Origin: a virus
Direction: 5' to 3' (one strand)
DNA length: 42,962 nucleotides
IMG/VR virus record: IMGVR_UViG_3300044953_000742
Span: 1-42,962 of that record
In this document: positions 13,642 to 39,535 of the stretch, piece by piece
Numbering within the stretch: the stretch's first letter is position 1
Layout: the number at the start of each line of letters is the position of its first letter
Made by a program: the position numbers and the translations under genes
Notes under the pieces: generated by a model
The model's input: the letters and a program-made list of their open reading frames with translations, nothing else
What the model was told of the DNA's origin: nothing
Databases searched by the model: none

Positions 13642-13651
13642 GATAAATATG
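13642..13651. promoter_or_regulatory. Intergenic element NATAAATATG, copy 1
   Basis: GATAAATATG on the plus strand (CATATTTATC in the direction of the genes), between a terminator-like hairpin and the 101-residue gene. Four further matches lie at 26859, 28801, 35197 and 39526, all intergenic. It resembles the late-promoter core NATAAATA of T4-like phages but points against the genes; its direction of action is unresolved. Confidence 0.45.
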
Positions 13652-13658
13652 ATCAAAA

Positions 13659-13695
13659 TGAAACGGGTGACAGAAAGTATTTTTTCTGCCACCCG
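13659..13695 (-). terminator. Terminator-like hairpin after the 21-residue gene
   Basis: The minus-strand RNA can pair CGGGTGGCAGA (13695-13685) with TCTGTCACCCG (13674-13664), 11 bp with one G-U pair and a 10-base A-rich loop. The U-tract is imperfect (UUUCAUUUU), so termination may be partial. It sits between the lysine-rich mini gene and the 101-residue gene. Confidence 0.6.
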
Positions 13696-13739
13696 CCACT
13701 AAACCGAATACAACAGATTCAAGTTTCAAGAAATTACGA

Positions 13740-13805
13740 CTACTTGCCGCCCTTCTTGCCGCCCTTCTTGTCGCCTTCCTTCTTCTTATCTTCAGCCTTT
13801 GCCAT
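13740..13805 (-). CDS. 21-residue Lys/Gly-rich mini-protein
   Basis: Very short ORF, MAKAEDKKKEGDKKGGKKGG plus a final K. It is backed by a strong SD (ACAGGAGA, seven bases before the ATG at 13805), a TAG stop and a hairpin terminator downstream. It stands in its own gap between two larger genes. The repeated KKGG pattern and net positive charge suggest a nucleic-acid or tail-peptide binder, but no function can be claimed. It could also be a leader peptide that sets translation or transcription of the next gene. Confidence 0.55.
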   Translation of the reverse strand: MAKAEDKKKEGDKKGGKKGGK

Positions 13806-13838
13806 GTTAGTCTCCTGTGTTAATTAATGCGGCAGCGT

Positions 13839-14423
13839 TTACTCATTTGAACTGGCAATCGTTGCCTTAAGTTCATTTTCCGCCAAGCACTTGCATGTCT
13901 GCCATACATGCGTCAGTAAGTGACTGTTCCTGGCGTAAAATCCGTTATCCTCCACATGGAGGCCAGATGATGTAATTATGGCAATCCACTCGTCAGAGTT
14001 TAAATTAATGCCTAATTTTGAGACAAAATATAGCGTCCTGTGCGAGGACAACATTTTTTCGCACGCTGGATTAAATTTGTAATACTGTCCTAACTTTTCC
14101 ACATGCCACGACGATTCCTGCGGAATTAGGAAGTCCTCTTTGTCGTCACCAATTTTACCGAGTTCATTGACCAACGCCACGCGGACGAGCGACTTTGTGT
14201 CAGTCACATCAGTAAAAATCTTTGACTTCTTGGCAGCAGAAATTGCAAAGTCGACCAGGCCACCAGCATATCCACCTTCGGCCAGCGTCAGTCCGCGAGC
14301 TGCGACTGCCAACCTAGGGCCCAACAGAGAGTCCAGCTCAGTCGCATTGGCGTCACTGAAGTATTTTGCAAACAGTGCAATGTATTTTTCGTACGCCTTA
14401 ATAATTTGTTCGTTAGTTTTCAT
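13839..14423 (-). CDS. Phage protein resembling HD-domain hydrolases, probably lacking catalytic residues
   Basis: Its 194 residues have the layout of phage HD-superfamily proteins: a glycine-rich segment (AEGGYAGGLVDFAISAAKK near 48-66), then VRVALVNELGKIG, where the family usually has a His-Asp pair before LGKIG, then SSWHVEKLGQYYKFNP and RTLYFVSKLGINLNSDEW. The metal-binding His-Asp doublet appears replaced (Asn-Glu), so hydrolase activity is doubtful and a structural or regulatory role is possible. The ATG is followed by a lysine-rich N-terminus. The family link is from memory of pattern, not a search. Confidence 0.6.
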   Translation of the reverse strand: MKTNEQIIKAYEKYIALFAKYFSDANATELDSLLGPRLAVAARGLTLAEGGYAGGLVDFAISAAKKSKIFTDVTDTKSLVRVALVNELGKIGDDKEDFLIPQESSWHVEKLGQYYKFNPACEKMLSSHRTLYFVSKLGINLNSDEWIAIITSSGLHVEDNGFYARNSHLLTHVWQTCKCLAENELKATIASSNE

Positions 14424-14465
14424 GCATTGATTGTATCAATTCACGACGAACAAGTTCAACGATAC

Positions 14466-15041
14466 TCACACTTTTTGAACTATTACAGCCTTCGATGACG
14501 GTGAAGCAGTCGTAATCCTGAGTTTTACGCCTGGTGGGATGTCAAATTTTCCTGCATTGTAGGCACCCAACAGTGTCAGGTGAATGTACACAGTGGCGTT
14601 TCTGCCTGACACGCCTTCGCCTGACGCAATGTCGTCTGGTTCCATAGAGAGCACAACGGGCACAGACACCTGCTCGGGCGTGATGGCTGGTGTGCCGTAC
14701 AGCTGCGACATGGCGGCTGACGCCACAGCCTGTGACAACACCTCATTCGCCGCTTCCAATGGGTCTTTGCTTGTCGCTTTTTTCGTGATCCCAAGCCTGC
14801 CCATCAGAGACTGGCTCTTCGCGACTGACACAGCTGACTTTGCGATGACATCGTCGTAAGATTCGTCAGCTTCGTGCTTGAGACCTTTGACGACTGCGCC
14901 CCAGCTTCCTTTTCCTGGATTCCAGAGGATGACACTTTTTGCTGGGGGTCTAGCGGGTTGATCGGCTGCTGGCTTGCTGCCTTCTTTCTCTTCCAGGAGA
15001 GCCCCGACTGCCTGGGCAAACATTTTGTCAAAATTTTTCAT
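14466..15041 (-). CDS. Unknown 191-residue protein
   Basis: Not recognised. The start is set at the ATG at 15041, two bases after the polymerase TAA; an AAGGA lies very close to it, so initiation may depend on coupling to the polymerase. The N-terminus is helical (FAQAVGALLEEKEG), then a proline/alanine linker, a long helical middle (DDVIAKSAVSVAKSQSLMG) and a beta-rich end (NATVYIHLTLLGAYNAGKF through LRITTAS). No catalytic motif is seen. It could be a polymerase accessory factor or an unrelated gene. Confidence 0.65.
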   Translation of the reverse strand: MKNFDKMFAQAVGALLEEKEGSKPAADQPARPPAKSVILWNPGKGSWGAVVKGLKHEADESYDDVIAKSAVSVAKSQSLMGRLGITKKATSKDPLEAANEVLSQAVASAAMSQLYGTPAITPEQVSVPVVLSMEPDDIASGEGVSGRNATVYIHLTLLGAYNAGKFDIPPGVKLRITTASPSSKAVIVQKV

Positions 15042-15045
15042 GTCC

Positions 15046-16188: not shown

Positions 16189-16197
16189 AGTGAATTT

Positions 16198-16308
16198 TTA
16201 TCTTACTGGGGGCAGTTGTTCATCTGCGTACTTCGATAAACAGGGTGGGCTGACGCTGGCTATGCGGCTATCTTCCTGGTACTCTCGACTAGTGCTCTCG
16301 TAGATCAT
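16198..16308 (-). CDS. Candidate 36-residue ORF upstream of and in frame with the polymerase
   Basis: The ATG at 16308 overlaps a TGA (ATGA, the junction type used by several real gene pairs here). The ORF runs 36 codons (MIYESTSREYQED.., ending YADEQLPPVR) to a TAA at 16198. The next codons in the same frame read K-F-T and then the polymerase GTG. It may be a tiny gene, or the N-terminus of the polymerase cut off by one nonsense codon. The translated text looks protein-like but I recognise no family. Confidence 0.38.
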   Translation of the reverse strand: MIYESTSREYQEDSRIASVSPPCLSKYADEQLPPVR

Positions 16309-22504: not shown

Positions 22505-22702
22505 TTATTCCTCAGCAGGGGACTGCTGTTCATCTTCCTCACCCACGGCTGCGTCGTCAAGCACGTTGCCTAACATGCTGAGCCAGTATTTTTTAGTCTC
22601 GGGTGCAGCTTCCTGCAATATTGCTAGGTAGGACATTGCCAAAGTATTTTTTCTCGCCGCCAGCTTCTCAAGCCATGACTGTATCTCGTGTGGTTCTTTC
22701 AT
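22505..22702 (-). CDS. Small acidic protein, 65 residues
   Basis: No family recognised. It is mostly helical (EIQSWLEKLAARKNTLAMSY, then YWLSMLGNVLDDAAVG) with an acidic, glutamine-rich end. The ATG at 22702 overlaps the tape measure stop (ATGA), so it is coupled to that gene. Its place between tape measure and baseplate suggests a tail assembly or baseplate accessory role; this is inference from position only. Confidence 0.75.
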   Translation of the reverse strand: MKEPHEIQSWLEKLAARKNTLAMSYLAILQEAAPETKKYWLSMLGNVLDDAAVGEEDEQQSPAEE

Positions 22703-25700
22703 GGTGATGAGATCAATCCAGGACGTTCACTACCACCCGGTTCCACAGCAAGGCGCTGTGGTTTGTTGGTGTCTTTGCTTAAGTCTACTCGAATGAGCTG
22801 TGGTGCTATGGCATGAGCAACGTCTTTAGCATTGAGACTCACGTTAATCGTCACTTGAGCATTTGGCAGATTGTGATTGACTTCAATTTTTCCCATTTTT
22901 GATAGATTCTGAACAAAAGTTGCAAAACCAGTCTTTTTGACATCAATATTGGAAAAACTGTCATTTGCTGTCTTTACGCCGCTCACAAAGTCACTTATAT
23001 CTGTCGCAATGCTCTTCCCACCCAGCGTGCTGCCGTCGGTTGAAGCGTATTTGGACATAATATTTTTTGATATTTCTGCAACGTTTTCGAGCATAGCGCT
23101 GCTGTTCATAAGCGCGGGGCTGATCTTTGCCAATTTTCCAGCCATTCCAGCAAAGGTAACCATATCTGTCGCAAGCTTTGCCATTGCGCCTACATTTTCC
23201 TGAGCCTCATAAAAAATTTTTTTCAAATTAGCTTGTTCACCTTTCTGCTCGCTTGCGACTGTAACAGCAAAGGTCGAAACTATTTCCATTGCCCTTGTGT
23301 ATTTTGGTAGAATTTCGTTAAGGTCCTTCTCTAGTCGTCCAGGATCCAATGCAGCAAACTTTGATTTTGCTGCTGTTAGTTTTTCTTGCAGTATTGATAA
23401 TTCTTCAATTTTTGTTGCTGTTTCTTGCGCTTTTGTCAAAGCATCCATAAACAACTTGTCAGGATCATTTGCTTCTTTTAGGGCGGCTGCTACTTTTTCT
23501 GCTTCAACCTTAGCGGCTTCAGCAATTTCTTTTTCAACTCGTTCCCTTACTGTACGTTTTAGGATGTCTCTTTCTTTTTGGAATTCTAGAGAAGTAGGGT
23601 CAAGGCCTTTTGCGCGTGCCTGCACCTGAGCAGCATAAGAAACAGCAGATTCCAAGTCTCCTCTTTTTACTGCATCCTCATAAAGACGTTTCGTTGTCTC
23701 CTGACCTTCCTCCAGAGCCTGTTTGATGCCTTCTGCAGAAATTCTTTGAGAATTTGCAATTTGCTCACCCATTTCTTTTTCTTTTTTTGTGGCTTCATCC
23801 ATTTTTTTGTGAAGCGCCCCACCCGTGACCACGTTCGCTAACACCGTAACAGGATGGTACTTGAATATAAATTCGCCAACGGATTCACCTGCAGATTTTA
23901 TTTGATCTTTTGAAACGAGACCTAGTGTAGCAGATGACAAAACTGATGCGCCAAACCCCTGGACACCGTCCAGGACTGCGGCTGGACCTGTCTTGTTGGA
24001 TTCGAATCCATCTTTTATACCATCATATAGCCCTTTTGCGACAGCAATTCCTAATGCGACGGGGCCTGCCATTCTTGCAAGACCCATCCCCCCGCCAGGT
24101 ATCATACCAACCAAATTTGTAAGACGTCCTTTTATCGCGCCCATAAATGTGGTGGCAGCGCTGCCGGCGGCGGTGGCGGCTTGATTTGTCAGCATATTTA
24201 CAAATGCTTTCTTTGCAAACTCGATGGCCAGTTGCATAGCCAACGAAATGGCAAATTGAATTGTCCATGCTATTGCCAGCACTTTTGCAATCTCTATAAG
24301 ATGCGGCTTAAGTTTTTCAAATGCCACGTTGATGAGTTCGATAAATGCATCGCCCAGTGCTGGTCCTTGCTCTTTCAGGGCATCCTTTATTGGACCAAAA
24401 AAGCTGCCAGCTATGCTGGTAGCGCCAGAAGTATCGATTTTTGCCTTTCCGGTAATAAGATCTATGAGATTTTTTATTCCTTCTGTGGCCAGTTCCATCA
24501 GTTTTTTCAGAAGCTCACCGAAGACTACACCGAGGACAGACATGATAGTTTTGAACCCTTCCTTGATTTTCTCCAGCGCTCCTCCGGCTCCTCCGAACGT
24601 ATCTCCAAAAATTTTCACAATGTTCTTCATCAAGGTTTGCATGCCAGCCTTTGGGTCTGTCTGTGCGGCAGTAAAAAATGTTCTAAATGCCCCCAAAATC
24701 TCATCGAACATTTTTCTGAATTTTGCAGGATTGAAAAGTTCAGTGAAACCCTTTGCTAGCTTGTCCATTCCTGGGAAATTGTCAAACAATAATTGAGCTA
24801 ACTGTCTTCCAAAGTAATACGCCTGTCTGAATGTGGCCTGTAAATTTATGAACATCTTCCGCATGTTCTCTGAACGATTCATGCCCTCCGAGAAACCCTT
24901 GGAGAAAGCATCAAAAAACCCTTGGAATTTTTCGCCTTCTGGTGGAACGATTTTCTTGATAGCCGCCGCAAGCTCTTTCATGGCTTTTGCTTGATCTTTT
25001 GCGGCCCGTGTCGCAGACTGTGCAGCTTTTTCTGATTCAGACAGCGCTTTCTTCTTGTTGCCTTCACCCATGGCTGCTTCGAACGCTGCACCTGTGAGAC
25101 CGGTGGTCGACTCCGCCAGCTTCCTCTCAGCAGAAGTCATGTTGTTGATGTCTTTTCCTGCAGCTTTGAAGGCGTTGCGTAATGCCTCCAAACGTTTAGT
25201 CGGATCTTGTTCCTTGACCATCTTCATGGCATCGATGTTGACGCCAAATGCCTGGGAAAGTTGCGAGGCTGCCTCAGCAGCATTCTCGAACGAGTCGAAC
25301 TTGTCAAACACACCCTGCAGGTCTTTCACTTCAATGCCCAGGTTGTGAGTGTAGTGAGCTACCTTCGCCATCGCCTGGACACCGCTCTTGGCAAATTGCG
25401 GGAATGTCTGTGTGGTTTCCACCATCGCCTTGCTCAGGGTCTTGATGTTGAAACCTGACTGCTTGGCCATCATTGCCGCAGTTGTTCCCATTTCTTGCAG
25501 CATCTTGGAAGCGTTCTGGCCTGAATTGTAGAAGAACTTCATGGCACTGCCAGTTTCTTCGTTAGACAGTCCCATTCCCTTGATTGCGTACGTGACGCGA
25601 CCGATGTCGGACCCGATCTGTGCCATGATGGGTCCCAGCTGCGAGCCCAACCCCTGGCTCATGTCTTTGATGAACCCGAGCATCGCGGCCTTGCCCTCGA

Positions 25701-26841
25701 CGCCAAAGCCAAAAATTTTTCGCATGCTGAGGCTTGTCTCTTTGGCCATGGCCCCTGAGCTTTGTTGTAGCTCTTTGAATGCTCCCATTACTTGGCCGCC
25801 GGCGCCGCCTTTCAAACTGCCGAACATCTCCGTGACGTCTTCTTTCATTTGTCTGAAAGCGGGGTTGTAGGGCATATTCGCGGATTTTTCGACGAATGCA
25901 TCCCACAGTTTGAAAGGCAAAGACAGTATCGCCAGGCCGACATTGAAGAGTGTGCCTACGAGGCTTCCGGCCATTTTTATCAGGCCAAACGTACCTGACG
26001 TAGCGGCAGACAGTGCATCACCAAAAGCACCTGCCACTTTGCTTACCATGGCAAGTTTCTTTTTTAACTCTTCAGCCTCCTCGGCGGATTGCTTCATCGC
26101 AACGTTAAAGCCTTTCAATGCTCCGGTGGCCTTGTCAGCACCGGCGGATTGCTTCATCGCAACGTTAAAGCCTTTCAATGCTCCGGTGGCCTTGTCAGCA
26201 CCGGCGGATTGCTCCATCGCAACGTTAAAGCCTTGTTGACTTTCTTTTGCCTTGTCGTGCGCGCTCGCAACAGCATCGGTTGCGCTAGTCATACCATTCA
26301 ATGCTCCGGTGGCCTTGTCAGCACCGGTGGATTGCTTCATCGCAACGTTAAAGCCTTGTTGACTTTCTTTTGCCTTGGCGAGCGCGCTCGCAACAGCATC
26401 GGTTGCGCTAGCCATACCATTCAATGCTCCGGTGGCCTTGTCAGCACCGGCGGATTGCTTCATCGCAACGTTAAAGCCTTGTTGACTTTCTTTTGCCTTG
26501 GCGAGCGCGCTCGCAACAGCATCGGTTGCGCTAGCCATACCATTCAATGCTCCGGTGGCCTTGTCAGCCTCCTCGGCGGATTGCTTCATCGCAACGTTAA
26601 AGCCTTGTTGACTTTCTTTTGCTTTGTCTGCTGCATTAGCGGACTTGTCGGTCGCACCAGCCATGCGGTTCACAGCGTCGGCCGCCTTGTTAGCACCTGC
26701 AACAAGGCCGCTTTTCATCGATGAAATGATGTCAGCTTGCGTCGAGAGGGATTTCTCGTGGTCTGCTAAAAGCTTGGTCCTCGCCGTGAGGATGTCATTG
26801 ATAGAAGCCTGTAGTTGTGTCTGCTGTCCCAAGTCTGCCAT
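22699..26841 (-). CDS. Tail tape measure protein with internal tandem repeats
   Basis: Sets tail length and fills the tube lumen. At 1380 residues it is far longer than T4 gp29 (about 590). If the usual 1.5 angstroms per residue holds, the tail would be roughly 200 nm. The N-terminus is helical; residues about 70-260 are tandem copies of a 41-residue unit (ESQQGFNVAMKQSAGADKAT core). Then come long coiled-coil and hydrophobic segments (AFGDALSAATSGTFGLIKMA; LAIAWTIQFAISLAMQLAIE) typical of tape measures. The C-terminal region is again helical. An AAGGTGAG SD lies seven bases before the ATG, and the intergenic AT-rich element lies upstream. Confidence 0.93.
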   Translation of the reverse strand: MADLGQQTQLQASINDILTARTKLLADHEKSLSTQADIISSMKSGLVAGANKAADAVNRMAGATDKSANAADKAKESQQGFNVAMKQSAEEADKATGALNGMASATDAVASALAKAKESQQGFNVAMKQSAGADKATGALNGMASATDAVASALAKAKESQQGFNVAMKQSTGADKATGALNGMTSATDAVASAHDKAKESQQGFNVAMEQSAGADKATGALKGFNVAMKQSAGADKATGALKGFNVAMKQSAEEAEELKKKLAMVSKVAGAFGDALSAATSGTFGLIKMAGSLVGTLFNVGLAILSLPFKLWDAFVEKSANMPYNPAFRQMKEDVTEMFGSLKGGAGGQVMGAFKELQQSSGAMAKETSLSMRKIFGFGVEGKAAMLGFIKDMSQGLGSQLGPIMAQIGSDIGRVTYAIKGMGLSNEETGSAMKFFYNSGQNASKMLQEMGTTAAMMAKQSGFNIKTLSKAMVETTQTFPQFAKSGVQAMAKVAHYTHNLGIEVKDLQGVFDKFDSFENAAEAASQLSQAFGVNIDAMKMVKEQDPTKRLEALRNAFKAAGKDINNMTSAERKLAESTTGLTGAAFEAAMGEGNKKKALSESEKAAQSATRAAKDQAKAMKELAAAIKKIVPPEGEKFQGFFDAFSKGFSEGMNRSENMRKMFINLQATFRQAYYFGRQLAQLLFDNFPGMDKLAKGFTELFNPAKFRKMFDEILGAFRTFFTAAQTDPKAGMQTLMKNIVKIFGDTFGGAGGALEKIKEGFKTIMSVLGVVFGELLKKLMELATEGIKNLIDLITGKAKIDTSGATSIAGSFFGPIKDALKEQGPALGDAFIELINVAFEKLKPHLIEIAKVLAIAWTIQFAISLAMQLAIEFAKKAFVNMLTNQAATAAGSAATTFMGAIKGRLTNLVGMIPGGGMGLARMAGPVALGIAVAKGLYDGIKDGFESNKTGPAAVLDGVQGFGASVLSSATLGLVSKDQIKSAGESVGEFIFKYHPVTVLANVVTGGALHKKMDEATKKEKEMGEQIANSQRISAEGIKQALEEGQETTKRLYEDAVKRGDLESAVSYAAQVQARAKGLDPTSLEFQKERDILKRTVRERVEKEIAEAAKVEAEKVAAALKEANDPDKLFMDALTKAQETATKIEELSILQEKLTAAKSKFAALDPGRLEKDLNEILPKYTRAMEIVSTFAVTVASEQKGEQANLKKIFYEAQENVGAMAKLATDMVTFAGMAGKLAKISPALMNSSAMLENVAEISKNIMSKYASTDGSTLGGKSIATDISDFVSGVKTANDSFSNIDVKKTGFATFVQNLSKMGKIEVNHNLPNAQVTINVSLNAKDVAHAIAPQLIRVDLSKDTNKPQRLAVEPGGSERPGLISSP
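26082..26622. repeat. Tandem DNA repeats in the tape measure gene (60- and 123-base units)
   Basis: Two adjacent, near-identical 60-base units start at about 26082 and 26142. They are followed by units of 123 bases (shared start points at 26221, 26344 and 26467) and one of 126 bases, up to 26622. Copies differ by only a few bases. Every period is a multiple of three, so copy-number changes keep the frame and would change tail length. The near-identity implies recent duplication or ongoing conversion. Confidence 0.92.
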
Positions 26842-26890: not shown

Positions 26891-27181
26891 TCAGGTGAAG
26901 CGCCTCAGGTTGGCCGGTACCTGTGACCTGTATTTTCCTGCCAATGCCCTGGCGTCTGGCGTGTTGGCGTGTGCAGCGCGTGACTGTTCATTGTTGGATC
27001 TCTTGAGTTCTTCCATCAACCTGTCAATGAACCAGATTCTTTGCCACACAGGCATGTTGAATGCATCGTGGTACGAAAAACCAACATAATACATCAGAGT
27101 GAAAATGTGTTCCAGGGAAACGACCTTATCTTCAGGCGTCAGGCCAAAAAAACGATGCGCCGATGGGTAGGCGCACCTCAC
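26891..27181 (-). CDS. Small tail assembly chaperone-like protein, probably made by frameshift fusion
   Basis: A 96-codon ORF directly upstream of the tape measure gene. The conserved-looking part begins at FFGLTPEDKVVSLEHIFTLM and continues through YVGFSYHDAFNMPVWQRIWF to a basic end. Small proteins with an FGLTPE..L..EIF...Y.G start follow gp26-like genes in many T4-like phages. The only start available is a GTG at 27181, 50 bases inside the gp26-like gene and without an SD. A run of seven T at 27152-27146 lies where a shift of +1 (or -2) would continue the gp26-like frame straight into FFGLTPE. Position (two overlapping genes before the tape measure) matches lambda G/GT-type chaperones. 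Confidence 0.78.
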   Translation of the reverse strand: MRCAYPSAHRFFGLTPEDKVVSLEHIFTLMYYVGFSYHDAFNMPVWQRIWFIDRLMEELKRSNNEQSRAAHANTPDARALAGKYRSQVPANLRRFT

Positions 27182-27983
27182 TCTGTTCCGAACACGAGGA
27201 ACACGTCATCCACGATTTCATGTCAATGCCAGGTTCGTGGTCATCCATGAACTTTCGAAGGGCCCTAGAGTCACCTGCAGGCATGTTACGAATGAACTGT
27301 TGGATTTTTGTCCTGTCCTTGACATCGCCAATGCCAACAACGGCATACTGCAGTCTTATTGTTATCAGGTTGTCAGTGTCGCTACCGAGCTTCTTTTTTC
27401 TGCGCTCCGTTTCTTGGGAGATTTCCGTCTCGTCTCCGCCTGTGAGGAACTTAAAATGCACTTGCTTCTTACTGACTGGCAAGAAGAACGAAAACAGGTT
27501 GGCACCTGCTACGGTCGGTTCAATGTCCAACCGCTTGATTGGCAGCTCACCGAGATTGAACTCCTGTTTGTTTTTTTCGTTGCAGGCGGGGCAACTGACT
27601 TCACAGTTGTACAATGCACCGTATCCTGTAATGCGAATAGCTGTCATCAGCGCATTGCGGTCACCAGAAATCAATTGTTCGACATCTATCGACTTGTCAA
27701 GTATGCATGACCGCAAGAGCTCTGTTATTACAGTGCCCTTTTTAATCAAAGCTTTGGATGTCAGGATGTCTTCCTCCTTGGCAGTCATGGCCTTGATGTC
27801 GATAGTCTCGGAATTGTGAAGCGGTGAGCCCTCGGGATAAATGATTCCACCGGATGGCAATGGGACCGATTCAACAGGAACTTCGTACCCAAAATCGTCC
27901 TTCATCACATTTCTGGTCATCATTCCGGCAGCAGCGGCCTGGTGCTGCGTGAAAATATCATTGCCCTGTCTGTGTTCTTGCAT
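27132..27983 (-). CDS. Baseplate hub assembly protein, T4 gp26-like, with zinc-ribbon cysteines
   Basis: Its 283 residues resemble the T4 gp26-type base plate family: LTSKALIKKGTVITELLRSC, LISGDRNALMTAIRITGYG, then a metal-binding pair of Cys motifs (CEVSCPACNEKNK near 135-147) and a second pair near the end (TCSSCSEQSE). The protein ends IGASFFWPDA. AAAGGAG ten or so bases before the ATG is a strong SD. It probably helps assemble the hub or acts as a chaperone before tail tube growth. The last 50 bases overlap the next ORF at a homopolymer. Confidence 0.75.
   Translation of the reverse strand: MQEHRQGNDIFTQHQAAAAGMMTRNVMKDDFGYEVPVESVPLPSGGIIYPEGSPLHNSETIDIKAMTAKEEDILTSKALIKKGTVITELLRSCILDKSIDVEQLISGDRNALMTAIRITGYGALYNCEVSCPACNEKNKQEFNLGELPIKRLDIEPTVAGANLFSFFLPVSKKQVHFKFLTGGDETEISQETERRKKKLGSDTDNLITIRLQYAVVGIGDVKDRTKIQQFIRNMPAGDSRALRKFMDDHEPGIDMKSWMTCSSCSEQSEVRLPIGASFFWPDA
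27146..27152 (-). other. Candidate translational slippage site, seven T
   Basis: Minus-strand codons are TCG TTT TTT TGG in the gp26-like frame, then a TGA 12 bases later. Skipping one T, or slipping back two, gives TTT TTT GGC CTG and continues into the chaperone-like ORF. The predicted fusion would be about 363 residues. Confidence 0.5.
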
Positions 27984-28285: not shown

Positions 28286-28777
28286 TTAGTACTGCAGCAC
28301 GCAGTTATCGAAGCGCAGGCCGAGGGACAGTTCAGTCGCATCGTTGGTGTTGTAATCAAGGCCACCACCGAAATCAGCTTTGGTTATCATGGCACCCTTG
28401 ATGTCCCACAGCTCCACCACTGTGCCGACAGGATCGAGCATTTTTAGTTGGCAGTCGCGCTTGTAAAAATCTGCATAACCGGCGCGCCCTGAGACGGACT
28501 CAAAGTGCGTGCGGACCCACTCCATCACCTGTTGCGCACCTGAAGGTGCGATTGGGTCGTGGAGTGTTACCGTGATTTCGTCCCATTTCCCCTTGCCAGA
28601 CACATAACGTGTGGAGTTGATGTATGGAATTTCAATGTTTTCCAGCGTCATTGATGGCCGTGCTGCCGTTTTCATCAAGAAGGCGTCAATTCCTTCTATG
28701 GCAAATATCCACCTAAACTTTCTTTTAGGTTCGAACTTGTTGGGAAGCATATCGGTTACTGATAGTGTCTCTGCCAT
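28286..28777 (-). CDS. Tail tube protein (T4 gp19-like)
   Basis: Forms the inner tube of the contractile tail. At 163 residues it is about the same length as T4 gp19. The start follows the family (FEPKRKFRWIFAIEGIDAFL); the centre has the RPSMTLENIEIPYINSTRYV and WDEITVTLHDPIAPS strands; the end has LDYNTNDATELSLGLRFD. AGGAG sits seven bases before the ATG. It comes directly after the two sheath genes, in T4 order, and is followed by a terminator, so it can be made in high amounts. Confidence 0.93.
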   Translation of the reverse strand: MAETLSVTDMLPNKFEPKRKFRWIFAIEGIDAFLMKTAARPSMTLENIEIPYINSTRYVSGKGKWDEITVTLHDPIAPSGAQQVMEWVRTHFESVSGRAGYADFYKRDCQLKMLDPVGTVVELWDIKGAMITKADFGGGLDYNTNDATELSLGLRFDNCVLQY

Positions 28778-28830: not shown

Positions 28831-31800
28831 TCACACTTGTGCGCCTGCGTTTGTCACCACGAAATCCAACGAGATGAACTCCACAGACTTTGTGGGTTGG
28901 AGGAATATCTTACCTCGAATCGTGTTGTTCTCCACGTCCGCTTGGGTCGTGGTCGTGGTATCGATTCTCACACTGAACCGATCCAGTCCCTGCTGCGCTT
29001 GCACCGATGACAAAATCGGTGTCACCTGTGCGGAGAATGCCGCCAAAGTAGATGCCCTGTTAGGTTCGAAGATGAATGTGTTAGCCACGGCCCTGACCTT
29101 GCGACGAATGTCGATCAGTAGGCGCCTGACGTTCACGCGATCGAGCGCGCTCTGGGCCGCCATCAATGTCTTTTGGCCGAAAACAACAGGGTTTGGCGTG
29201 CCTGGAAACTGTGTGATGGGGTTGATGTCGGCTCCGTAAAGAGTGTCCAAGTTGTCCTGGCTCAGTTTCACATTCGTCTCCAGCACAGTTGCCAACGCAC
29301 CGCGTGTGAACCCAGCAGGCGCGAACCACGGGAAACCAATCTTGTCGTTCAGCGAGAACGCACCGATGACAGCTACGGACGGCGGACAGCTGACATTTGT
29401 CTTTGTCGCAGGGTCAGTTATCACAACGTCTGGGAAGTACGCAGCAGCGAACGAAGAGTCCAAGCCACGCGATTGCAGCGCCGCCACAGTGTTGGCTACA
29501 CTGACCAACTGGTTGGAACCCGTCACGATCGAGGCGACGTTGTCTTTCTCCTGGATGTCCATCAGGTAAATGGAATCAAAACGTGTCTCCACAGCATCGG
29601 TCGCATAATCTGTCACTGATGTGTCCCTGATGCCAGGTATTGCTAGCAACTGGATGTCGGCATCTGTCTTATTTTTCAGCACATCGATCGCCTTGCGGTA
29701 AGCTGCGACCGTGGGACCGGACACACCGCCCTGGTTGGTGGAATCGCTGAATTCACGAAGGACAGCATTGTTGGTCATTTCGCTCTTGTCTTTGTTGAAA
29801 ATATTGACACCGTCAAAACCGCCTTGCATCGGGAAGGTGAACTTCAGGTATCTCTTACTGGGGAGGTCACCGAAGTCCTTCGATGCATCGAGGAACCTGG
29901 AACCCTTTGATGTGCCATTGGTGTCTGTGATGCTGCTTACGGCGACACCGTCTCGCCTGTATGCTGCGACCGCCCACTGGGTGGGATCGGGCCTGTCAGT
30001 GGATCCCGTTATCACCTCGACGCGTTCAAGCGAAAAGAAGTTTCTGTTGTAGAGGTCAGAGTCAATGACGGCACCGCCGACGTTGGCTGTCCCTGCATTG
30101 TCTCCGACAAAAGCGTTCTGCTGACTGAGGTGGTACAGAGGGAAGTATTTTGTCAACGAGACCAGTGTAGAATCTATCAGTTGATTTTTGTTCGGTTCGT
30201 CGGCATCGTTCAGCAGTTCGAACTGTGTGCCCCACGTTAAGGCGGGTTGGACCACCTTTTTGGTGGAAAGGCCTGTTGCCAAGTTACGACGAAGAGGAAA
30301 CGCTGGTTCTTTGATTGTACGTAAGGCTGCCGTTGTAATGCCGGCAATCGACCCGCCGGTGTTGGTCGAGCCGACGATGGTGCCAGTCAGTACAGATCCC
30401 ACGGTCGTTACGGTAGTTGCACCAAGTACCAGGTGGTGCGGACCTCTGAAGCCTGTGGGCAATGCAGTCGGATCTATTGAGCCGTCCTTCAAACCGCTGG
30501 AAAGTTGCACGTAAACATATTGCGAGACGTTGGGGTAATCACCTTCGACGACCAGCCTCTGCTTTCCTAGCGGTTGGTCGAAATCAAAGAACGTGTCTGT
30601 GTCACCGATTGCCTTGGCGATGTATTTGTCAGAAGTTGGGTCCAAGCTCAGGCCACGGAATGCTTCCAATACTATAGGCTGAACGTCGGTGTCATCGAAT
30701 TTACGAACAAGCAAATCAAATGTGCCAAATTTACTGACAGTGTTCGTTGATGCCTGAATGTTTTCAATGGTAATCTTGAACTCGGCGGAAGAAACTTCAC
30801 CGTCGGAACGAGCGTGCAGTTTGAAAAGGTTTTGATTGGCGCCGCCAAATTTTTGGGAAACCACGAACGGTGAGAAGGCGTTGCGGAACCTATCACTGAA
30901 CGCCTCGAAATTGGGGACGCCAAGGGAGGTCGTCGTGCTTGACGCATTGCCGGTGTTCCTGCCTAGTGAAGAGGTCAGAAGCAGCGCAATCAAAGATCCA
31001 GCACCCTCGGTAAAACCACCTTTGTTTGTTCCTGCACCAAAACCTGTGCCAGTCACGACGGCCAAGGAAGGCGCAATGTCGTAATGTGTGTAAAGATAGT
31101 GGCCAGCAGGTTCCAGCTGGGTGGGGTCCGTATTGAAGAGGTTGGCAAAATAATTTCCAGCCTCAGGATCGAACGACGCTGTGATGACATTTTTGTAGCT
31201 GTCACTGTTTTTCAATCCGTTGAGCAACAGTGTAAATTCTTGTTTGGCATTTGATGTGACAACTGAACCAATGTTCGCACCGGCGTTGCCTGCGCCGCTG
31301 TCACCGAACGCTGCAAACCCGTTTGTATTGGCGGCAGGGGTATTGTTTGATGTGCCAGTAACGCTAGCAGACAGACCTATCATCACACCGGAGGCAGCCA
31401 TCAGCACACCGCGAAGAATTGGCACAGAGGTAGCGCTTGTCTGGATGCCTGGTTGGGAAAAAATTCCCGAACCGTTGGATTCAGACATCATTACACCCAA
31501 GAAGTAAGTCTTTCCAAGCGGGCCGGGGGCAGCGGCGGAGGTTGTTCCATTGTACTGTCCGGCACCAACAATTCCGTTTGGTTGGACTTGCTGCTCACCG
31601 ACCACAAACCCTGCATTCGTCACATCACCTTCAGAATTTCTAGTCTTGCCGTCGCCGGCCCCTAACACCTTGACATATGTGACAGAGCTAGCATTGTTGA
31701 GCCATTCTCTGACAGCCATCGGACCGAATTTTTTACCGTCTGAGTTACCAAACGTAGCAATGAAATCCTGAAATGTGCCCACTGTGATGGGCACAAATGC

Positions 31801-31923
31801 AGGTCCGCGGACTGCTGTCCCGATAACACCTGCTGGTGTGCCGGATGGCCCAACTTTTGTGGGACCTGACAGGTCAATTTCACGGAGGCTCACTCCTGCG
31901 CTTTTGAATGTTAGTTCAGCCAT
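28831..31923 (-). CDS. Tail sheath protein, downstream paralog (T4 gp18-like)
   Basis: Contractile outer sheath subunit of 1030 residues, longer than T4 gp18 (about 660); the extra length is probably surface domains in the middle. The N-terminus has GTPAGVIGTAVRGPAFVPIT and FGPMAVREWLNN; the C-terminus has FPWFAPAGFTRGALA, INPITQFPG, VVFGQKTL and SALDRVNVRRLL, the conserved sheath core. AGGAGTCAAA ATG is the same ribosome-binding leader as in the other sheath gene. It is clearly related to its upstream neighbour over both ends but diverges in the middle. Both genes are intact, so both may be assembled or one may serve a special position in the tail. Confidence 0.93.
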   Translation of the reverse strand: MAELTFKSAGVSLREIDLSGPTKVGPSGTPAGVIGTAVRGPAFVPITVGTFQDFIATFGNSDGKKFGPMAVREWLNNASSVTYVKVLGAGDGKTRNSEGDVTNAGFVVGEQQVQPNGIVGAGQYNGTTSAAAPGPLGKTYFLGVMMSESNGSGIFSQPGIQTSATSVPILRGVLMAASGVMIGLSASVTGTSNNTPAANTNGFAAFGDSGAGNAGANIGSVVTSNAKQEFTLLLNGLKNSDSYKNVITASFDPEAGNYFANLFNTDPTQLEPAGHYLYTHYDIAPSLAVVTGTGFGAGTNKGGFTEGAGSLIALLLTSSLGRNTGNASSTTTSLGVPNFEAFSDRFRNAFSPFVVSQKFGGANQNLFKLHARSDGEVSSAEFKITIENIQASTNTVSKFGTFDLLVRKFDDTDVQPIVLEAFRGLSLDPTSDKYIAKAIGDTDTFFDFDQPLGKQRLVVEGDYPNVSQYVYVQLSSGLKDGSIDPTALPTGFRGPHHLVLGATTVTTVGSVLTGTIVGSTNTGGSIAGITTAALRTIKEPAFPLRRNLATGLSTKKVVQPALTWGTQFELLNDADEPNKNQLIDSTLVSLTKYFPLYHLSQQNAFVGDNAGTANVGGAVIDSDLYNRNFFSLERVEVITGSTDRPDPTQWAVAAYRRDGVAVSSITDTNGTSKGSRFLDASKDFGDLPSKRYLKFTFPMQGGFDGVNIFNKDKSEMTNNAVLREFSDSTNQGGVSGPTVAAYRKAIDVLKNKTDADIQLLAIPGIRDTSVTDYATDAVETRFDSIYLMDIQEKDNVASIVTGSNQLVSVANTVAALQSRGLDSSFAAAYFPDVVITDPATKTNVSCPPSVAVIGAFSLNDKIGFPWFAPAGFTRGALATVLETNVKLSQDNLDTLYGADINPITQFPGTPNPVVFGQKTLMAAQSALDRVNVRRLLIDIRRKVRAVANTFIFEPNRASTLAAFSAQVTPILSSVQAQQGLDRFSVRIDTTTTTQADVENNTIRGKIFLQPTKSVEFISLDFVVTNAGAQV

Positions 31924-31967
31924 TTTGACTCCTAGAAAATTTCATTACACTTGATAACTATCCAAGA

Positions 31968-34900
31968 TTACAGGAACTGGACGCCTGAATTGGTGATGAT
32001 AAAATCGATCGAAACAAACTCAATTGTCCTTGTCGGCACAATCACAATTCTGCCGTTAAGCTTGTTGGACGCAACGTCTTCGGCTGAATTATTGGAATCG
32101 TCACAAACTACCTTGAAAGATTCGACACCTGATTGTGCTTGGACCAAGGCCAGCTGCGGTGTGACACTTGCAACAAACCTTGCACGTGTGACGGCATTAT
32201 TGGGTTCGAACAGCAGCTGTTGTGCCGATCCACCGATAATTCGCTTCAGTTCGAGCAACAACCTTCGGACATTGATGCGGTCGAGCGCAGACTTGGCTTG
32301 CTGGAGAGTTTTTTGTCCGAAGACAACGAAACCACCCGTGGGGAAGGTAGCGATTGGATTGATACGTGCATCGTACAGCGTGTCCTTGTCTCCTTGCGAC
32401 AGCCTTGTCTCCACATTGGTGACAAATCCCAGCGCTCCGCGGTTGAAACCGGCCGGTGCAAACCACGGAAATGCGACCTTGTCATTGAATCCAAGGACAC
32501 CTAAAGCGGCTACCGAAGAGGGCACCTTGACTACGCGATTATTGACACTGTCCTGAATATTGACATCTGGAAAGAATACAGCGCCGTAGCTGTTGTCGAT
32601 TGCCCTGCTTTCAAACGTTTCTGATGTCTTACCTGGATCTGGTCTTGTCGACGAGTCATCGTACAAACGATTTCCGGAGCTGTCATACTTTGGCATGTCC
32701 ATCACATACATGATGAGGCCGTTGTCGCGGCAAAGCGACATGGCATTGTCGGTGACAAAGGGCTCTCTGACACCTGGTATTGCCAGCAAGTTGATGTTGG
32801 AACTGAACGTATCTGTCATGATACCTGCGGCTGCATTCATGGATGCAACATTGTTGTTCTTGCGTCCGCTGCCAGCGTTGGTATCGGACTGTGTAGAAAC
32901 ATCCAACGGTCCCCTGTACGCACTGTCAGCTTTGCCGCCTGTGTCAGACGACAATGCTTTATCGCGAAAGTAAATGCGGTCCCTGTCCGTAATGTCTATT
33001 CCGTCGAACCCGCCATAGAAGATATTGGTAAATTTAGCGAAGGGGGTGAACCTGTTGAACAGCACTGATGATGTCGCCAGCAGCGATGCCAGCGTGTAAC
33101 GATTGTCGATGCCGTCATCAATTGTGTAGTCGGACGTGTCTGGGTCACCGTTCCTGATGTATGCAGTCTCAAGCATCACTTGATCTGCCGACCCGGTGAA
33201 GACTGTCGATCCGAACACACCTGTAAGACCTGTGCCAGTCTGGGACGTCGCAACACGAGCTAGGGTAAATTTATTGTCATTGAACTCGTCCGCGCCAGAT
33301 CCTGTCACCAGGGAATCCAGCAGCTTGATACCTACAAACTTACCATACGCCGTAATCAGTGAGTTAAAGTCAGACCCCTCGTTCGGACGAAGGACGGCGT
33401 CTGTCGTTCCGAGTGCTGGGTCTGTGCTTGAGCTCACAGGTATTCTTGCTGTGTTCACACCCCAGTAGAAACGGGCGTCGACCCTCTCATTCGTGCCAGG
33501 ATTTCCTAAAAAGCCGCTAGTGGCTGTTGCCCCGCGAGTGACCTTAACACGGAAAGGCAACGGAGGAACAATTGAGCTGAGATGGTTGAAACTGCCTGCT
33601 GTGGCAATTGTTCCTGACACGGCATCGAGTCTCCTTGCTGTAGAATCGCCCAACGTCCTTCCGTCTTTTGCGACCAACCCTACATTTTTGTCTTTCAGCG
33701 TGTCAGTCGTCTTCAGCGTAGGGACACCACGAAAACCAAACGGCATTGCGTCGGCCGGCACATTGTTGTTTTCGACGCTTGCATTCATCACAATTCTAAC
33801 ACGTTGTGAAACGTTGGGGTATTTGCCGCTGATGACAAGTCGGCGCTCTGTGGGGTCTTCTTGGTCAAAATCGTAATAGACCTTCTTGTCACCCACCATT
33901 CGTGCGACATAGCGTTCTGACTGAGGGTTCAAAGAACACTGCGCAAACGATTCCACAATTTGAGGGGCGGTGTCCAAGTCACCCAGGGCACGAACTTGCA
34001 CCTCAAATGTCCCGTAGGGGTCGGCAGGATTCGTTGAAGCGCGTAGGTTGGCAATCGAGACCTTAAAGTTATTGTTTCCTGTCTCACCGTCATCCAACGA
34101 TTCAAAGTGAAACAGGTCATATTCCTTTCTGCCGTAAGGCTGTGAAATGAATGACGTTGTTGCCGCGGTGGTGTAACGTGTGTCGTATCGACCGAACATT
34201 TCCTTGAATGTCAGAGATGTACCGGCACCGGAGTTCGCGCTACCTGCAACTGATCCGGAGACAATTGCCACTGCGCCAGCAGTCGTCACAACCTTCGCAA
34301 GGTCGTGTTCGACTGAAAAATCGGCGTACAGCAAGTGCTGTTCTTCACCAAAACGCAGTGGGTCAGTGTTTAGAATCTTGCCAATGTATGCACCGTCGTT
34401 GGGATCCAACGACGCAGACAGGATTCTCAGTCCAGTCTTGGTTTCAGCAGTTCCGTATGCCGCCAGCGTCGAGCTCAGGATGATTTTGAAATACTTTGAC
34501 TGCGTCAGGGGAGAAGAAGCGATGGCACCGGCCGTCGCCAAGTGACCTGCATTAATGGATGCAGCTGTTCCGATATTTGAATAAAACTCGTTGTTCGGTG
34601 CAAGCATCACACGGGAACCTGTAGCGGTCAAAATTACGCCGCGGACGAGGTTGATTGTGGATGTGGCTGTGACGCTGCTGTTGTCTGTGAAAAGTGGGTA
34701 GCCGTTGGCTTCAGTAGAGGTTGCAATCTCGTGCTGTGCGACCAAAAATTGTGCAGTACCGACATCTGCAAGACCTGCACCGGCGGGCCGCTGATTTGTC
34801 GCCATCACAGTTCCGGACACCTTGAACCCAGCATTCTTCACAATTCCTTGGATCTTTGTGTTAGAAATGTCTGTTGCGGTCGAGTTGGCCCCAGCGCCGA

Positions 34901-35156
34901 GAACCCTGAGGTAAGTCAACGCCGTCCTGTTTTTCAGCCATTCGTTCACAGCATATGGACCAAAACGATTTGGGTCCAACGAACCGAACTTCGTCTGAAA
35001 GTCAGCCAGAGAGCCGACAGTGACAGGCACGAATGCAGGTCCTTTCTGTGCAGTGCCGATGACGCCTGCCGGAACACCGACTGGTGACTGAACCTGGGCT
35101 GAGAGGTCAATTTCCTGCTCAAAAAATCCCGGTGATCTAAAGGTCTGTTCTGCCAT
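31968..35156 (-). CDS. Tail sheath protein, upstream paralog (T4 gp18-like)
   Basis: A second full-length sheath subunit of 1062 residues. It shares with its neighbour VGVPAGVIGTAQKGPAFVPV, FGPYAVNEWLKN, FPWFAPAGFNRGALG, VVFGQKTLQQAKSALDRINV and the ending IVPTRTIEFVSIDFIITNSG. The middle (about 150-750) shows only patchy likeness. The start ATG has the same AGGAGTCAAA leader. The tandem arrangement with a 44-base gap suggests an old duplication that included the translation leader. It follows the neck genes in T4 order. Which paralog forms most of the sheath cannot be told. Confidence 0.93.
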   Translation of the reverse strand: MAEQTFRSPGFFEQEIDLSAQVQSPVGVPAGVIGTAQKGPAFVPVTVGSLADFQTKFGSLDPNRFGPYAVNEWLKNRTALTYLRVLGAGANSTATDISNTKIQGIVKNAGFKVSGTVMATNQRPAGAGLADVGTAQFLVAQHEIATSTEANGYPLFTDNSSVTATSTINLVRGVILTATGSRVMLAPNNEFYSNIGTAASINAGHLATAGAIASSPLTQSKYFKIILSSTLAAYGTAETKTGLRILSASLDPNDGAYIGKILNTDPLRFGEEQHLLYADFSVEHDLAKVVTTAGAVAIVSGSVAGSANSGAGTSLTFKEMFGRYDTRYTTAATTSFISQPYGRKEYDLFHFESLDDGETGNNNFKVSIANLRASTNPADPYGTFEVQVRALGDLDTAPQIVESFAQCSLNPQSERYVARMVGDKKVYYDFDQEDPTERRLVISGKYPNVSQRVRIVMNASVENNNVPADAMPFGFRGVPTLKTTDTLKDKNVGLVAKDGRTLGDSTARRLDAVSGTIATAGSFNHLSSIVPPLPFRVKVTRGATATSGFLGNPGTNERVDARFYWGVNTARIPVSSSTDPALGTTDAVLRPNEGSDFNSLITAYGKFVGIKLLDSLVTGSGADEFNDNKFTLARVATSQTGTGLTGVFGSTVFTGSADQVMLETAYIRNGDPDTSDYTIDDGIDNRYTLASLLATSSVLFNRFTPFAKFTNIFYGGFDGIDITDRDRIYFRDKALSSDTGGKADSAYRGPLDVSTQSDTNAGSGRKNNNVASMNAAAGIMTDTFSSNINLLAIPGVREPFVTDNAMSLCRDNGLIMYVMDMPKYDSSGNRLYDDSSTRPDPGKTSETFESRAIDNSYGAVFFPDVNIQDSVNNRVVKVPSSVAALGVLGFNDKVAFPWFAPAGFNRGALGFVTNVETRLSQGDKDTLYDARINPIATFPTGGFVVFGQKTLQQAKSALDRINVRRLLLELKRIIGGSAQQLLFEPNNAVTRARFVASVTPQLALVQAQSGVESFKVVCDDSNNSAEDVASNKLNGRIVIVPTRTIEFVSIDFIITNSGVQFL

Positions 35157-35196
35157 TTTGACTCCTGAATATGTCTGACATCCTAACGGTCACATA

Positions 35197-35206
35197 TCTA
35201 AATATG
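35197..35206. promoter_or_regulatory. Intergenic element NATAAATATG, copy 4 (variant)
   Basis: TCTAAATATG on the plus strand, in the 67-base gap between the tail completion gene and the first sheath gene, ending 40 bases before the sheath ATG. Confidence 0.4.
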
Positions 35207-35223
35207 TACCACATTACAAAACA

Positions 35224-36471: not shown

Positions 36472-36482
36472 CTTACACCCTC

Positions 36483-37139: not shown

Positions 37140-37218
37140 TCGTCACCTCACCGCCCAGTGCGACGGCAAATCGCCTTGTGAATGTGAAAAAATTACAATC
37201 ATTCTTTAGCGTCACAAT

Positions 37219-38394
37219 TTAGCCCATCACAATGGCTTTTCCGTTAGGAATCGGTACTTTTCTCAGCACGTTCATCAAATTGTTCGAAGAATTTGATTCT
37301 TTTTCTATCAGCTTGTCGTAAGTCATAGATTCCAACATCTCTTTCAATTGTGTAACAAGTTCCTTCTTGTCGTCCCTGCCCTGTGAAACGAGGTCATCGC
37401 CATTGAGAGATAAGTCTCCACCTGGAATGGGGATGGATTTCATTTTGCCACGAATGAGTCCCAAAAGCTCCTTGCACAGTGCCAAGGTATATTGCCTTAT
37501 CCACTGTCTGCCGATGGAATTGATCTTGGAGTACGTCAAGTTTCCGAACGGAATATTTGACATATTATTAACACCATTCAGCATCTTGTCGCCTGTGTCA
37601 GCCGTCGGGTTAGAAGCAAACTGCACACGTATCCAGAGTTTCGGAACAGCAATGATGCTCTGCGCAGTGGGTTGTGGGTACAACCTAATTTTCTGCCCGA
37701 TAATTCTGTAAGAATAATTTGACCGGCGCAGTTTGCTTGAAAACTTCAGCATTCCACCGCGAAGGACATCTTCAAATGTCGGAAGGACATAAAAAACCGT
37801 CTCAGGTGTGAACGATTCGAAAGCAAACTCATTGTTGAGATAGTTGATAGCGGATACAGTGTCAAAAAAACGGTATGCTGATTGCGGGCTAAAGTGGAAC
37901 ACCTCCGCTATTTTCATTCTGCTGCCCAGTGTGTTGATGGAACTGCTGACCAGTGGCACACTGCTGCCATCGACAAGGTCAGTAAGCAAGTTGTAGTCCT
38001 GCTGTTTGGCCACAAGGGTGATTGATCCGCTGGTCGTTGAATAGTCACCGCCTAACGAAGCTTCCTGGGCATACGGTTCAGCTTGGCGAAGAAAGAACTC
38101 CAATGTCTGTTTAGGATATTTGTTCTCGTTGCCTGACAGCGTGCCTGTCAACGAACCAAGAAAATTGTGAAGTTGACTTTTGCCTTGATATTCATTGATC
38201 AATTTTCCATATTCACAGAAACCTTCCTCGAAACATGCCCAGATTTGTTTCTTTGTCAGCTCCACTGAGAGCACATCGTCGCCCAGTTTTCTTTTGACAA
38301 ATGTGACCATCGCGTCGGCTTCAGTCTGGAAGGTCGTGTCGGCGTCAAAAAATGCAAAAGGTGTGGGTGACGTTGTGCTTGCAAAATTTGCCAT
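37219..38394 (-). CDS. Neck protein (T4 gp13 position)
   Basis: Its 391 residues have the usual neck-protein opening of a helical domain (DAMVTFVKRKLGDDVLSVEL, WACFEEGFCEYGKLINEYQG), then a beta-rich centre and a long C-terminal helix pair (RQWIRQYTLALCKELLGLIR and LVTQLKEMLESM). Together with the two genes downstream it keeps the T4 order 13-14-15-18-19. AAGGGT lies eight bases before the ATG. Predicted to seal the packaged head and form the docking ring. Confidence 0.75.
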   Translation of the reverse strand: MANFASTTSPTPFAFFDADTTFQTEADAMVTFVKRKLGDDVLSVELTKKQIWACFEEGFCEYGKLINEYQGKSQLHNFLGSLTGTLSGNENKYPKQTLEFFLRQAEPYAQEASLGGDYSTTSGSITLVAKQQDYNLLTDLVDGSSVPLVSSSINTLGSRMKIAEVFHFSPQSAYRFFDTVSAINYLNNEFAFESFTPETVFYVLPTFEDVLRGGMLKFSSKLRRSNYSYRIIGQKIRLYPQPTAQSIIAVPKLWIRVQFASNPTADTGDKMLNGVNNMSNIPFGNLTYSKINSIGRQWIRQYTLALCKELLGLIRGKMKSIPIPGGDLSLNGDDLVSQGRDDKKELVTQLKEMLESMTYDKLIEKESNSSNNLMNVLRKVPIPNGKAIVMG

Positions 38395-38431
38395 TTATTG
38401 ACCCTTCAGTTAAATAGGTCAATGGCAGTTG

Positions 38432-38764
38432 TTATTGCAAAAATTTGATCCAAATCACTGCACCGGCCATCAAAAATTGAACAACGCCAATTACGGTGAT
38501 TGCCCTAATCATGAACTCTCTGTTCACTTTGTGCTCTTTGATTAATTCTTTCAACTGTCCCGGAGAGATGACTTCATCCATTTTGGACTTCCATTCTCTC
38601 ATCTCGTCAACTTTTGACTCGCGCGTCTCGATCTTGGCAATGTCTCGACGAACTTCCTGGAGTTCTTTTTTCAATGCCTCTACGCCGTCGGCCAAAGTTT
38701 CGAGTTCCTTGAGCACGAGTTTGGAATACTCATTCCATCCATTGAGTTGTTTCTCGTCACTCAT
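38432..38764 (-). CDS. Coiled-coil protein with C-terminal membrane segment
   Basis: Its 110 residues are mostly charged heptad-like helix (LVLKELETLADGVEALKKEL through RDIAKIETRESKVDEMREWK), followed by a single hydrophobic helix near the C-terminus (ITVIGVVQFLMAGAVIWI). This layout, coiled coil then one membrane segment, resembles XhlA-type or spanin-like lysis accessory proteins and some holins, but no lysin gene is nearby, so function is open. The ATG overlaps the stop of the gene before it (ATGA). Confidence 0.72.
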   Translation of the reverse strand: MSDEKQLNGWNEYSKLVLKELETLADGVEALKKELQEVRRDIAKIETRESKVDEMREWKSKMDEVISPGQLKELIKEHKVNREFMIRAITVIGVVQFLMAGAVIWIKFLQ

Positions 38765-38970
38765 TTCTTGACCATTTCAGCCGCAGATGACATAACTTGC
38801 ATGAACATTTCAGATTTCTTAGGAAGTTCCATTTCACTTTCGTAGATTTCCAACATCCTATCACAGACACTAACTTTTTCTTCCTTAACTTTCTCTGCTT
38901 TTTCTGTCAATTCAAGAAGTTCTTTGATTTTCTTGAATCTCAATTTTTGAGAAATTTCAAGCCCTGCCAT
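38761..38970 (-). CDS. Small helical protein, 69 residues
   Basis: Highly charged and helical (LRFKKIKELLELTEKAEKVK, then MLEIYESEMELPKKSEMF). No family recognised. GGAG before the ATG gives a good start. Translationally coupled to the coiled-coil membrane protein through an ATGA overlap, so the two may form a complex. Confidence 0.72.
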   Translation of the reverse strand: MAGLEISQKLRFKKIKELLELTEKAEKVKEEKVSVCDRMLEIYESEMELPKKSEMFMQVMSSAAEMVKK

Positions 38971-38986
38971 GATAACTCCAATGAAT

Positions 38987-39028
38987 CACATTCCGCAGTC
39001 GGATTTTTATGTCCGGCTGCGGAATGTG
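38987..39028. other. Long hairpin between the 141-residue and 69-residue genes
   Basis: A 17-base stem (38987-39003 with 39012-39028) and an eight-base loop. It is perfect apart from one position that is G-U in plus-strand RNA and C-A in minus-strand RNA. No U-tract follows, so it is more likely an RNA-processing, stabilising or attenuating structure than a plain terminator. Confidence 0.65.
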
Positions 39029-39035
39029 AATGAAA

Positions 39036-39461
39036 TTAGGTTCCTGAAAATGTTACCGATCCGGAACCAGGCATCACGATGTAGTTCTTTCCATCGGAAA
39101 TTACGGCAACTGACGCACCAGCCACTGCCTGCAAAGTTAACTTGCTTCCATTCGCGACGTTGGCTGCATTGGTGTTACCAAGAACGAAGGCTTTCGTTCC
39201 ATTGGCCTCCGCCGAGCACGTTAGAAAGTTTGCAAAAGCATCTCCATTCCTAACGGTGAAAAGTCCACCTGGAAACGAGGATGCCAATGGCATCGTTGCT
39301 GCAACTGCGCTGCCCGCTGTTACAGTGTAAACCCCTGGTTGGCCAATAGTAAACGCAGCAGTCTTTGCACTAACTGTGCCGTATGGCAAATCATCTGTTT
39401 GAAATCCAGTACCGGCTGACTGAACGAGCCCTTGGGCTTCTGTATATCTTACCTTTGGCAT
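39036..39461 (-). CDS. Putative virion surface protein, beta-rich, 141 residues
   Basis: Small Ala/Gly/Thr-rich protein with alternating strand pattern (FTIGQPGVYTVTAGSAVAAT; LFTVRNGDAFANFLTC; LTLQAVAGASVAVISDGKNY) ending in SGSVTFSG. Such composition fits a head decoration or fibre-type protein; its place between head and neck genes agrees. CAAGG lies seven bases before the ATG. I cannot name a family. The long hairpin downstream and AT-rich element upstream suggest it is expressed as its own unit. Confidence 0.68.
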   Translation of the reverse strand: MPKVRYTEAQGLVQSAGTGFQTDDLPYGTVSAKTAAFTIGQPGVYTVTAGSAVAATMPLASSFPGGLFTVRNGDAFANFLTCSAEANGTKAFVLGNTNAANVANGSKLTLQAVAGASVAVISDGKNYIVMPGSGSVTFSGT

Positions 39462-39525
39462 AACTTACCTTGCCCACATGCTTCCGAAACACCGGTGGGT
39501 CGGTTAAAAAGGTTCCGGGCTTGAC

Positions 39526-39535
39526 AATAAATATG
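39526..39535. promoter_or_regulatory. Intergenic element NATAAATATG, copy 5
   Basis: AATAAATATG on the plus strand in the 93-base gap between the 116-residue gene and the virion surface gene, 64 bases before the latter's ATG. Confidence 0.45.

Follow-up and report, generated by a model that had tools for sequence, protein, structure and literature searches.

The heptamer ATANTTA, which recurs in the intergenic gaps of a 42,962-base virus fragment from IMG/VR (hereafter the window, which is the entire record) and of its relatives, can with good confidence be considered the late promoter of Far-T4-like phages, read by a phage sigma factor that is most likely gp55-like. The initial annotation of this DNA had already proposed, as one of several possibilities, that CATATTTAT marks a novel late promoter, and the strand of the element, the class of the genes it precedes, its distance to the start codon and its conservation in relatives all argue strongly for it.

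The phage and its relatives

The genes of the window are T4-like but divergent and include those for UvsX, a gp32-like protein, a DnaB-like helicase, an exonuclease, ribonucleotide reductase and topoisomerase II, next to the virion genes for the tail tube, two sheath proteins, the hub and the neck. Judged by the tail tube, the nearest named phages are Microcystis phage Mel-JY01, Flavobacterium phage immuto and Rhodothermus phage RM378, the last of which is the reference of the 'Far-T4' group (PMC4360716). The 2015 survey of these phages did not detect the core transcription-control genes of T4 and left their transcription open (PMC4360716). We have found neither a published promoter for the Far-T4-like group nor the consensus ATANTTA in the open-licence papers searched.

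Two further features of the window have counterparts in relatives. The two tail sheath genes, both large (1030 and 1062 aa), stand in tandem at 28831-35156, a pair that is also present in, for instance, G003. AATTTG repeats (13214-13265, minus strand), to which relatives have similar sequence, directly precede the ribosome site of the gene for the gp32-like protein; they might serve in autoregulation as a binding site, as is the case for T4 gene 32.

Copies of the element in the window

A pattern search of the window returned six exact copies of TAAATATG where 0.58 were expected, a number reached in none of 100 shuffles; the repeat is real and not due to chance. Five of these copies lie on the plus strand in intergenic gaps (at 13644, 26861, 28803, 35199 and 39528), at the sites listed before and all upstream of minus-strand genes, as had been claimed (Table 1). 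They are not the only copies, as had been thought, for a sixth is found within the 1380-aa gene, where it reads CATATTTA on the non-coding strand and probably represents a chance occurrence. The NATAAATATG context that was attributed to all gap copies surrounds four of them, whereas in the fifth position 35198 is a C (CTAAATATG). Two sequences had been set apart as weaker relatives: the ATAGTTA before sheath 1 is in fact a full member of the wider consensus described below, whereas the CTATTTA before the hub gene is doubtful. Another CTATTTA, before the neck gene, had been overlooked.

Table 1. Predicted late promoter elements and associated features of the window.
Feature	Start	End	Strand	Location
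Late promoter element ATATTTA	13644	13650	-	5 nt before ATG of ORF 13333-13638
Sixth TAAATATG copy	24193	24200	-	inside gene 22699-26841
Late promoter element ATATTTA	26861	26867	-	19 nt before 1380-aa gene 22699-26841
Doubtful variant CTATTTA	28100	28106	-	116 nt before baseplate hub gene 27132-27983
Late promoter element ATATTTA	28803	28809	-	25 nt before tail tube gene 28286-28777
Late promoter element ATAGTTA	31955	31961	-	31 nt before tail sheath 1 gene 28831-31923
Late promoter element ATATTTA (G next)	35199	35205	-	42 nt before tail sheath 2 gene 31968-35156
Variant CTATTTA	38411	38417	-	16 nt before neck (Ad2-like) gene 37219-38394
Conserved structured leader RNA	39474	39522	-	7-bp covarying stem; starts 5 nt after promoter element at 39528
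Late promoter element ATATTTA	39528	39534	-	66 nt before ORF 39036-39461; 4/4 orthologues

Orientation, consensus and strand bias

Read on the coding strand all five gap copies are CATATTTA, and 79 relatives have ATATTTA, ATACTTA or ATAGTTA at the corresponding place ahead of the tail tube gene, usually followed by a Shine-Dalgarno box and then the ATG. The element is therefore ATA-N-TTA, oriented with the genes and represented in the window mostly by CATATTTAT. Its earlier description as being oriented against the genes hinges on the strand that is read, since it was the reverse complement that had been seen. An expectation-maximisation fit yielded A (96%), T (95%), A (98%), N, T (93%), T (98%) and A (99%), present in about half of the upstream regions; on an antisense control the same procedure drifted (fraction 0.48) and was uninformative. 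The use of position 4 as a clade marker was rejected, as this base varies within single phages.

In upstream regions from hundreds of related contigs no 7-mer is more strand-biased than ATANTTA. Within the gaps between same-direction genes of about 155 related loci (1.9 Mb) ATA[CTG]TTA occurs 444 times in sense versus 11 times in antisense, and inside genes of the same DNA it is found at only about 0.1 per kb. ATATTTA (152:8), ATACTTA (116:8) and ATAGTTA (97:6) are the most strand-biased 7-mers among 770 distinct upstream regions and rank above the Shine-Dalgarno sequence. Over whole records the motif tracks the strand of the genes: the ratio is 32:6 in G002, most of whose genes are on the minus strand, and 5:2 for the minus-strand genes of G003. 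In G003 the set of motif-bearing genes is largely that of the window and includes the counterpart of the 1380-aa gene; several minus-strand genes of this relative have the motif on the minus strand. The signal is weak in RM378 and immuto (10:4 in both). The gaps are AT-rich and several relatives have a low GC content, which could favour chance matches; this explanation is hardly credible in view of the 444:11 bias, the dinucleotide-preserving shuffles given below and the enrichment that persists at 54% GC (28 sense versus 7 antisense in G007).

Association with late genes

We have counted orthologues with a sense ATANTTA within 90 nt. For the tail tube gene the count is 98/99, and for the other virion genes it amounts to 56-76%: sheath 1 (58/104, the exact motif being absent in 44%), sheath 2 (75/99) and neck (35/49). 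The baseplate hub gene has it in 22 of 88 orthologues and lacks it in 75%. The counts are low for UvsX (6/84), DnaB (5/89), ribonucleotide reductase (3/71), gp47 (2/97) and gp32 (3/73), and before replication genes the motif occurs at chance level only (2-7%). Of the late genes 230 of 296 carry ATANTTA, versus 19 of 414 replication genes (Fisher odds ratio 72; the sequences are related and the p value is not to be taken literally). Dinucleotide-preserving shuffles gave a mean of 10 for the tail tube, where 102 of 103 were observed, and a mean of 6 for UvsX, where 6 were observed. Thus, as in T4, it is the virion genes and not the replication genes that are preceded by the element, and the promoter would presumably be active late in infection.

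Spacing, promoter form and comparison with T4

The motif ends some 28-30 nt before the start codon in the relatives (median 30), and the window copies lie at 5-66 nt. Upstream regions of the relatives show a purine peak 6-7 nt downstream of the motif. No conserved upstream hexamer was found in these regions that could represent a -35 box, and TTGACA before late genes is as frequent in sense (6) as in antisense (7). ATANTTA would thus act as a -10-type element, recognised without a -35 box by RNA polymerase together with a phage sigma factor, and transcription would start at the purine 6-7 nt downstream, toward the virion genes. Gaps that lack ATANTTA show an excess of TATAAT in sense (84:44; G001-G004, G006-G010 and G012) and none of TTGACA, and a second promoter class is therefore likely.

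When the same procedure was applied to the late genes of T4, ATAAATA emerged as the top 7-mer, located 12-35 nt from the start in 13 of 14 cases and at 73 nt in one, and ATANTTA showed no sense excess (6 sense, 9 antisense). The T4 late promoter TATAAATA thus has the same geometry as ATANTTA in the same analysis, and both consist of a -10 element only. The T4 octamer itself is not what the phages of this study use: ATAAATA is found in sense before 9 of 296 late genes, versus 230 for ATANTTA. The consensus NATANTTA aligns with the octamer in the same direction, save for free positions and one A-to-T change, and the match to the T4 core that had been noted in reverse is therefore best seen as coincidental, even though the complement of ATATTTAT does contain ATAAATA in the window.

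That same containment is what speaks for a T4-type promoter ATAAATA that is active in the antisense direction. Such an antisense start is nevertheless very unlikely: in late genes ATAAATA is rare in sense, its antisense occurrence (35 of 296) is what the complement of ATATTTAT predicts, and the relatives freely use ATACTTA and ATAGTTA beside ATATTTA, and the complements of these differ from the T4 promoter.

A conserved leader RNA

Downstream of the promoter element at 39528 lies a leader that is conserved at the DNA level, though the proteins encoded after it are only 33-44% identical. Its 7-bp stem shows 100% pairing with compensatory changes in eight sequences, and in all eight the loop CCAC can pair with a downstream GTGG, a candidate H-type pseudoknot. 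A tenth match (L616), without stem, loop or motif, was taken as spurious and left out. No Rfam family matched anywhere in the window, the leader included. The late gene that it fronts lies near the capsid region and has no known function; the leader is also found in L615, L617, L618, L619, L621, L626 and L122.

In eight of nine relatives the leader begins exactly 5 nt past ATANTTA, and its first two bases, AA, therefore fall on the predicted start position. The leader boundary likely marks the start of the transcript, and the onset of a conserved RNA at this point is to be expected from a promoter.

The presence of this structure after one copy, together with the position of the motif at 5-66 nt before start codons, would also be in line with a signal that acts in the RNA of the coding strand, be it a processing site or a translation leader. 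As a general explanation, the RNA signal proposed earlier does not hold up; what stands of it is the separate structured RNA downstream of one copy. A transcription start better fits the peak of purines 6-7 nt downstream and the constant spacing of 5 nt to the leader, and the geometry of the motif equals that of T4 late promoters. In addition, ORF 13333-13638 leaves almost no room for a leader, its ATG being 5 nt from the motif. All in all, we consider an RNA signal instead of a promoter quite unlikely.

The motif is found in seven of nine orthologues of this ORF, and in most of them (L312, L324, L357 and L399; region 13333-13650 in the window, minus strand) the ATG follows 5 nt past the element. 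With the predicted transcript start on the ATG itself the message would be leaderless-like, and the mRNA may indeed be leaderless, considering this arrangement in most orthologues.

Candidate sigma factors

Neither of the two sigma genes described here was found in the window, a 43-kb fragment; the window's own phage presumably carries both. When 20 large relatives were searched with the T4 gp55 family, 8 of them returned weak matches, to ORFs of about 250 aa, and the gene was found in 10 of 21 and in 15 of 18 large records. These ORFs form a single family, to which candidate stretches of viral contigs add 445 relatives, and one member is present in Mel-JY01. Matches to PHROG 234 reach 1.6e-6; a profile comparison with T4 gp55 covers 106 columns (E 1.7e-4, with a probability of only 49%), and Sigma70_r2 of Pfam matches two of eight proteins (E 0.12 at best). 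Searches of the PDB with an AlphaFold model (mean pLDDT 82) returned almost exclusively sigma factors, at low scores (best E 0.02, TM 0.32). The C-terminus of most members is an aromatic tail (FDIF, for example) that recalls the tails, hydrophobic and acidic, by which T4 proteins bind the clamp (PMC2988020). A clamp-binding tail shared with DNA polymerase was considered and rejected, as the C-termini of the polymerase fragments have no common tail.

The second candidate is clearly homologous to RpoD (E 2e-45), with regions 1.2 and 2 in eight of eight proteins and region 3 in seven of eight. The alignment stops at region 4.1; region 4.2 is missing, so that the set of regions is incomplete. In 80 of 80 loci (L534-L613, e.g. 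L539:2501-3570, all from relatives) the gene is directly followed by ORF2 of about 95 aa (MSMPKG...YREIAEKM...NHSTARNVFL...), and the two may possibly constitute a split sigma factor. Pfam, PDB sequences and Foldseek gave no support for ORF2 as region 4.2, a role that its position and a predicted helix-turn-helix-like pair of helices would suggest. Large records usually carry both sigma genes: the mutual exclusion seen in the first 20 records was an artefact of fragments, since the 18 further records contain the gp55-like gene in 15 cases and the RpoD-like gene in all.

We assign ATANTTA to the divergent gp55-like sigma of about 245 aa encoded by these phages because it fits the T4 plan and because Mel-JY01, which has the motif, shows only that sigma; an RpoD-like match was not found there. 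This absence also bears on the alternative that the RpoD-like sigma, with the small ORF downstream, reads the late promoter. A sigma factor without region 4.2 would suit a promoter without a -35 box, and the protein is present in 18 of 18 large records tested, records that were mostly chosen for holding it. However, its region 2 is close to that of bacterial primary sigma factors and would suit TATAAT, the sequence enriched in the gaps that lack ATANTTA. We therefore regard this alternative as rather improbable and the gp55-like protein as the most likely reader. The annotated sigma of RM378, Rm378p144 (NC_004735.1, 128329-128928), gave no usable match to the gp55-like family, and late transcription in RM378 may therefore be run differently.

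Relation to known systems and implications

Single-element late promoters that are read by phage sigma factors are already known from T4 and phiEco32. The T4 promoter TATAAATA works with gp55, gp33 and gp45, and the cyanophage version is NATAAATA (PMC2988020, PMC2984593, PMC5587285). ATANTTA resembles these in being a single -10 element without -35 box, before virion genes and at an equal distance to the start codon; a divergent candidate for a gp55-class sigma gene is present in relatives. ATANTTA differs in its consensus, NATANTTA instead of TATAAATA, one A being replaced by a fixed T and one position being free; in addition, the Far-T4-like sigma is longer than gp55, with an extra C-terminal helical region, and a gp45-type sliding clamp (PF02916) was found in none of 20 records. 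The promoter of phiEco32 gp36 likewise has a single conserved element (tAATGTAtA; PMC8948821) and a phage sigma, with transcription starting 6-8 bp downstream of the element, but the sequence is another one and the phage group is unrelated. In the two-subunit sigma SigO-RsoA of Bacillus subtilis (PMC10141391) the sigma domains are divided between two proteins, and the RpoD-like sigma and ORF2 may represent a similar case, although with a break between regions 4.1 and 4.2 and with ORF2 as only a candidate sigma domain.

A more far-reaching picture, which we put forward tentatively, is that the new promoter code is part of a late system with two sigma factors: a single-chain late sigma with a gp55-like domain, a further helical domain and a tail resembling those that bind the clamp, and an RpoD-derived sigma whose region 4.2 would reside in a neighbour gene. 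A fused late sigma has been described as not yet found in a review on T4 (PMC2988020), and the proposed single-chain late sigma would be akin to it.

The Far-T4 phages are aquatic relatives of T4, widespread in fresh and sea water, and the group is huge and for the most part uncultured. With ATANTTA a short consensus is available from which their late genes and probable transcript starts can be predicted, in fragments too, and two sigma candidates can now be named. The single-element late promoter on the T4 plan would then have drifted to a new code in the Far-T4 branch.
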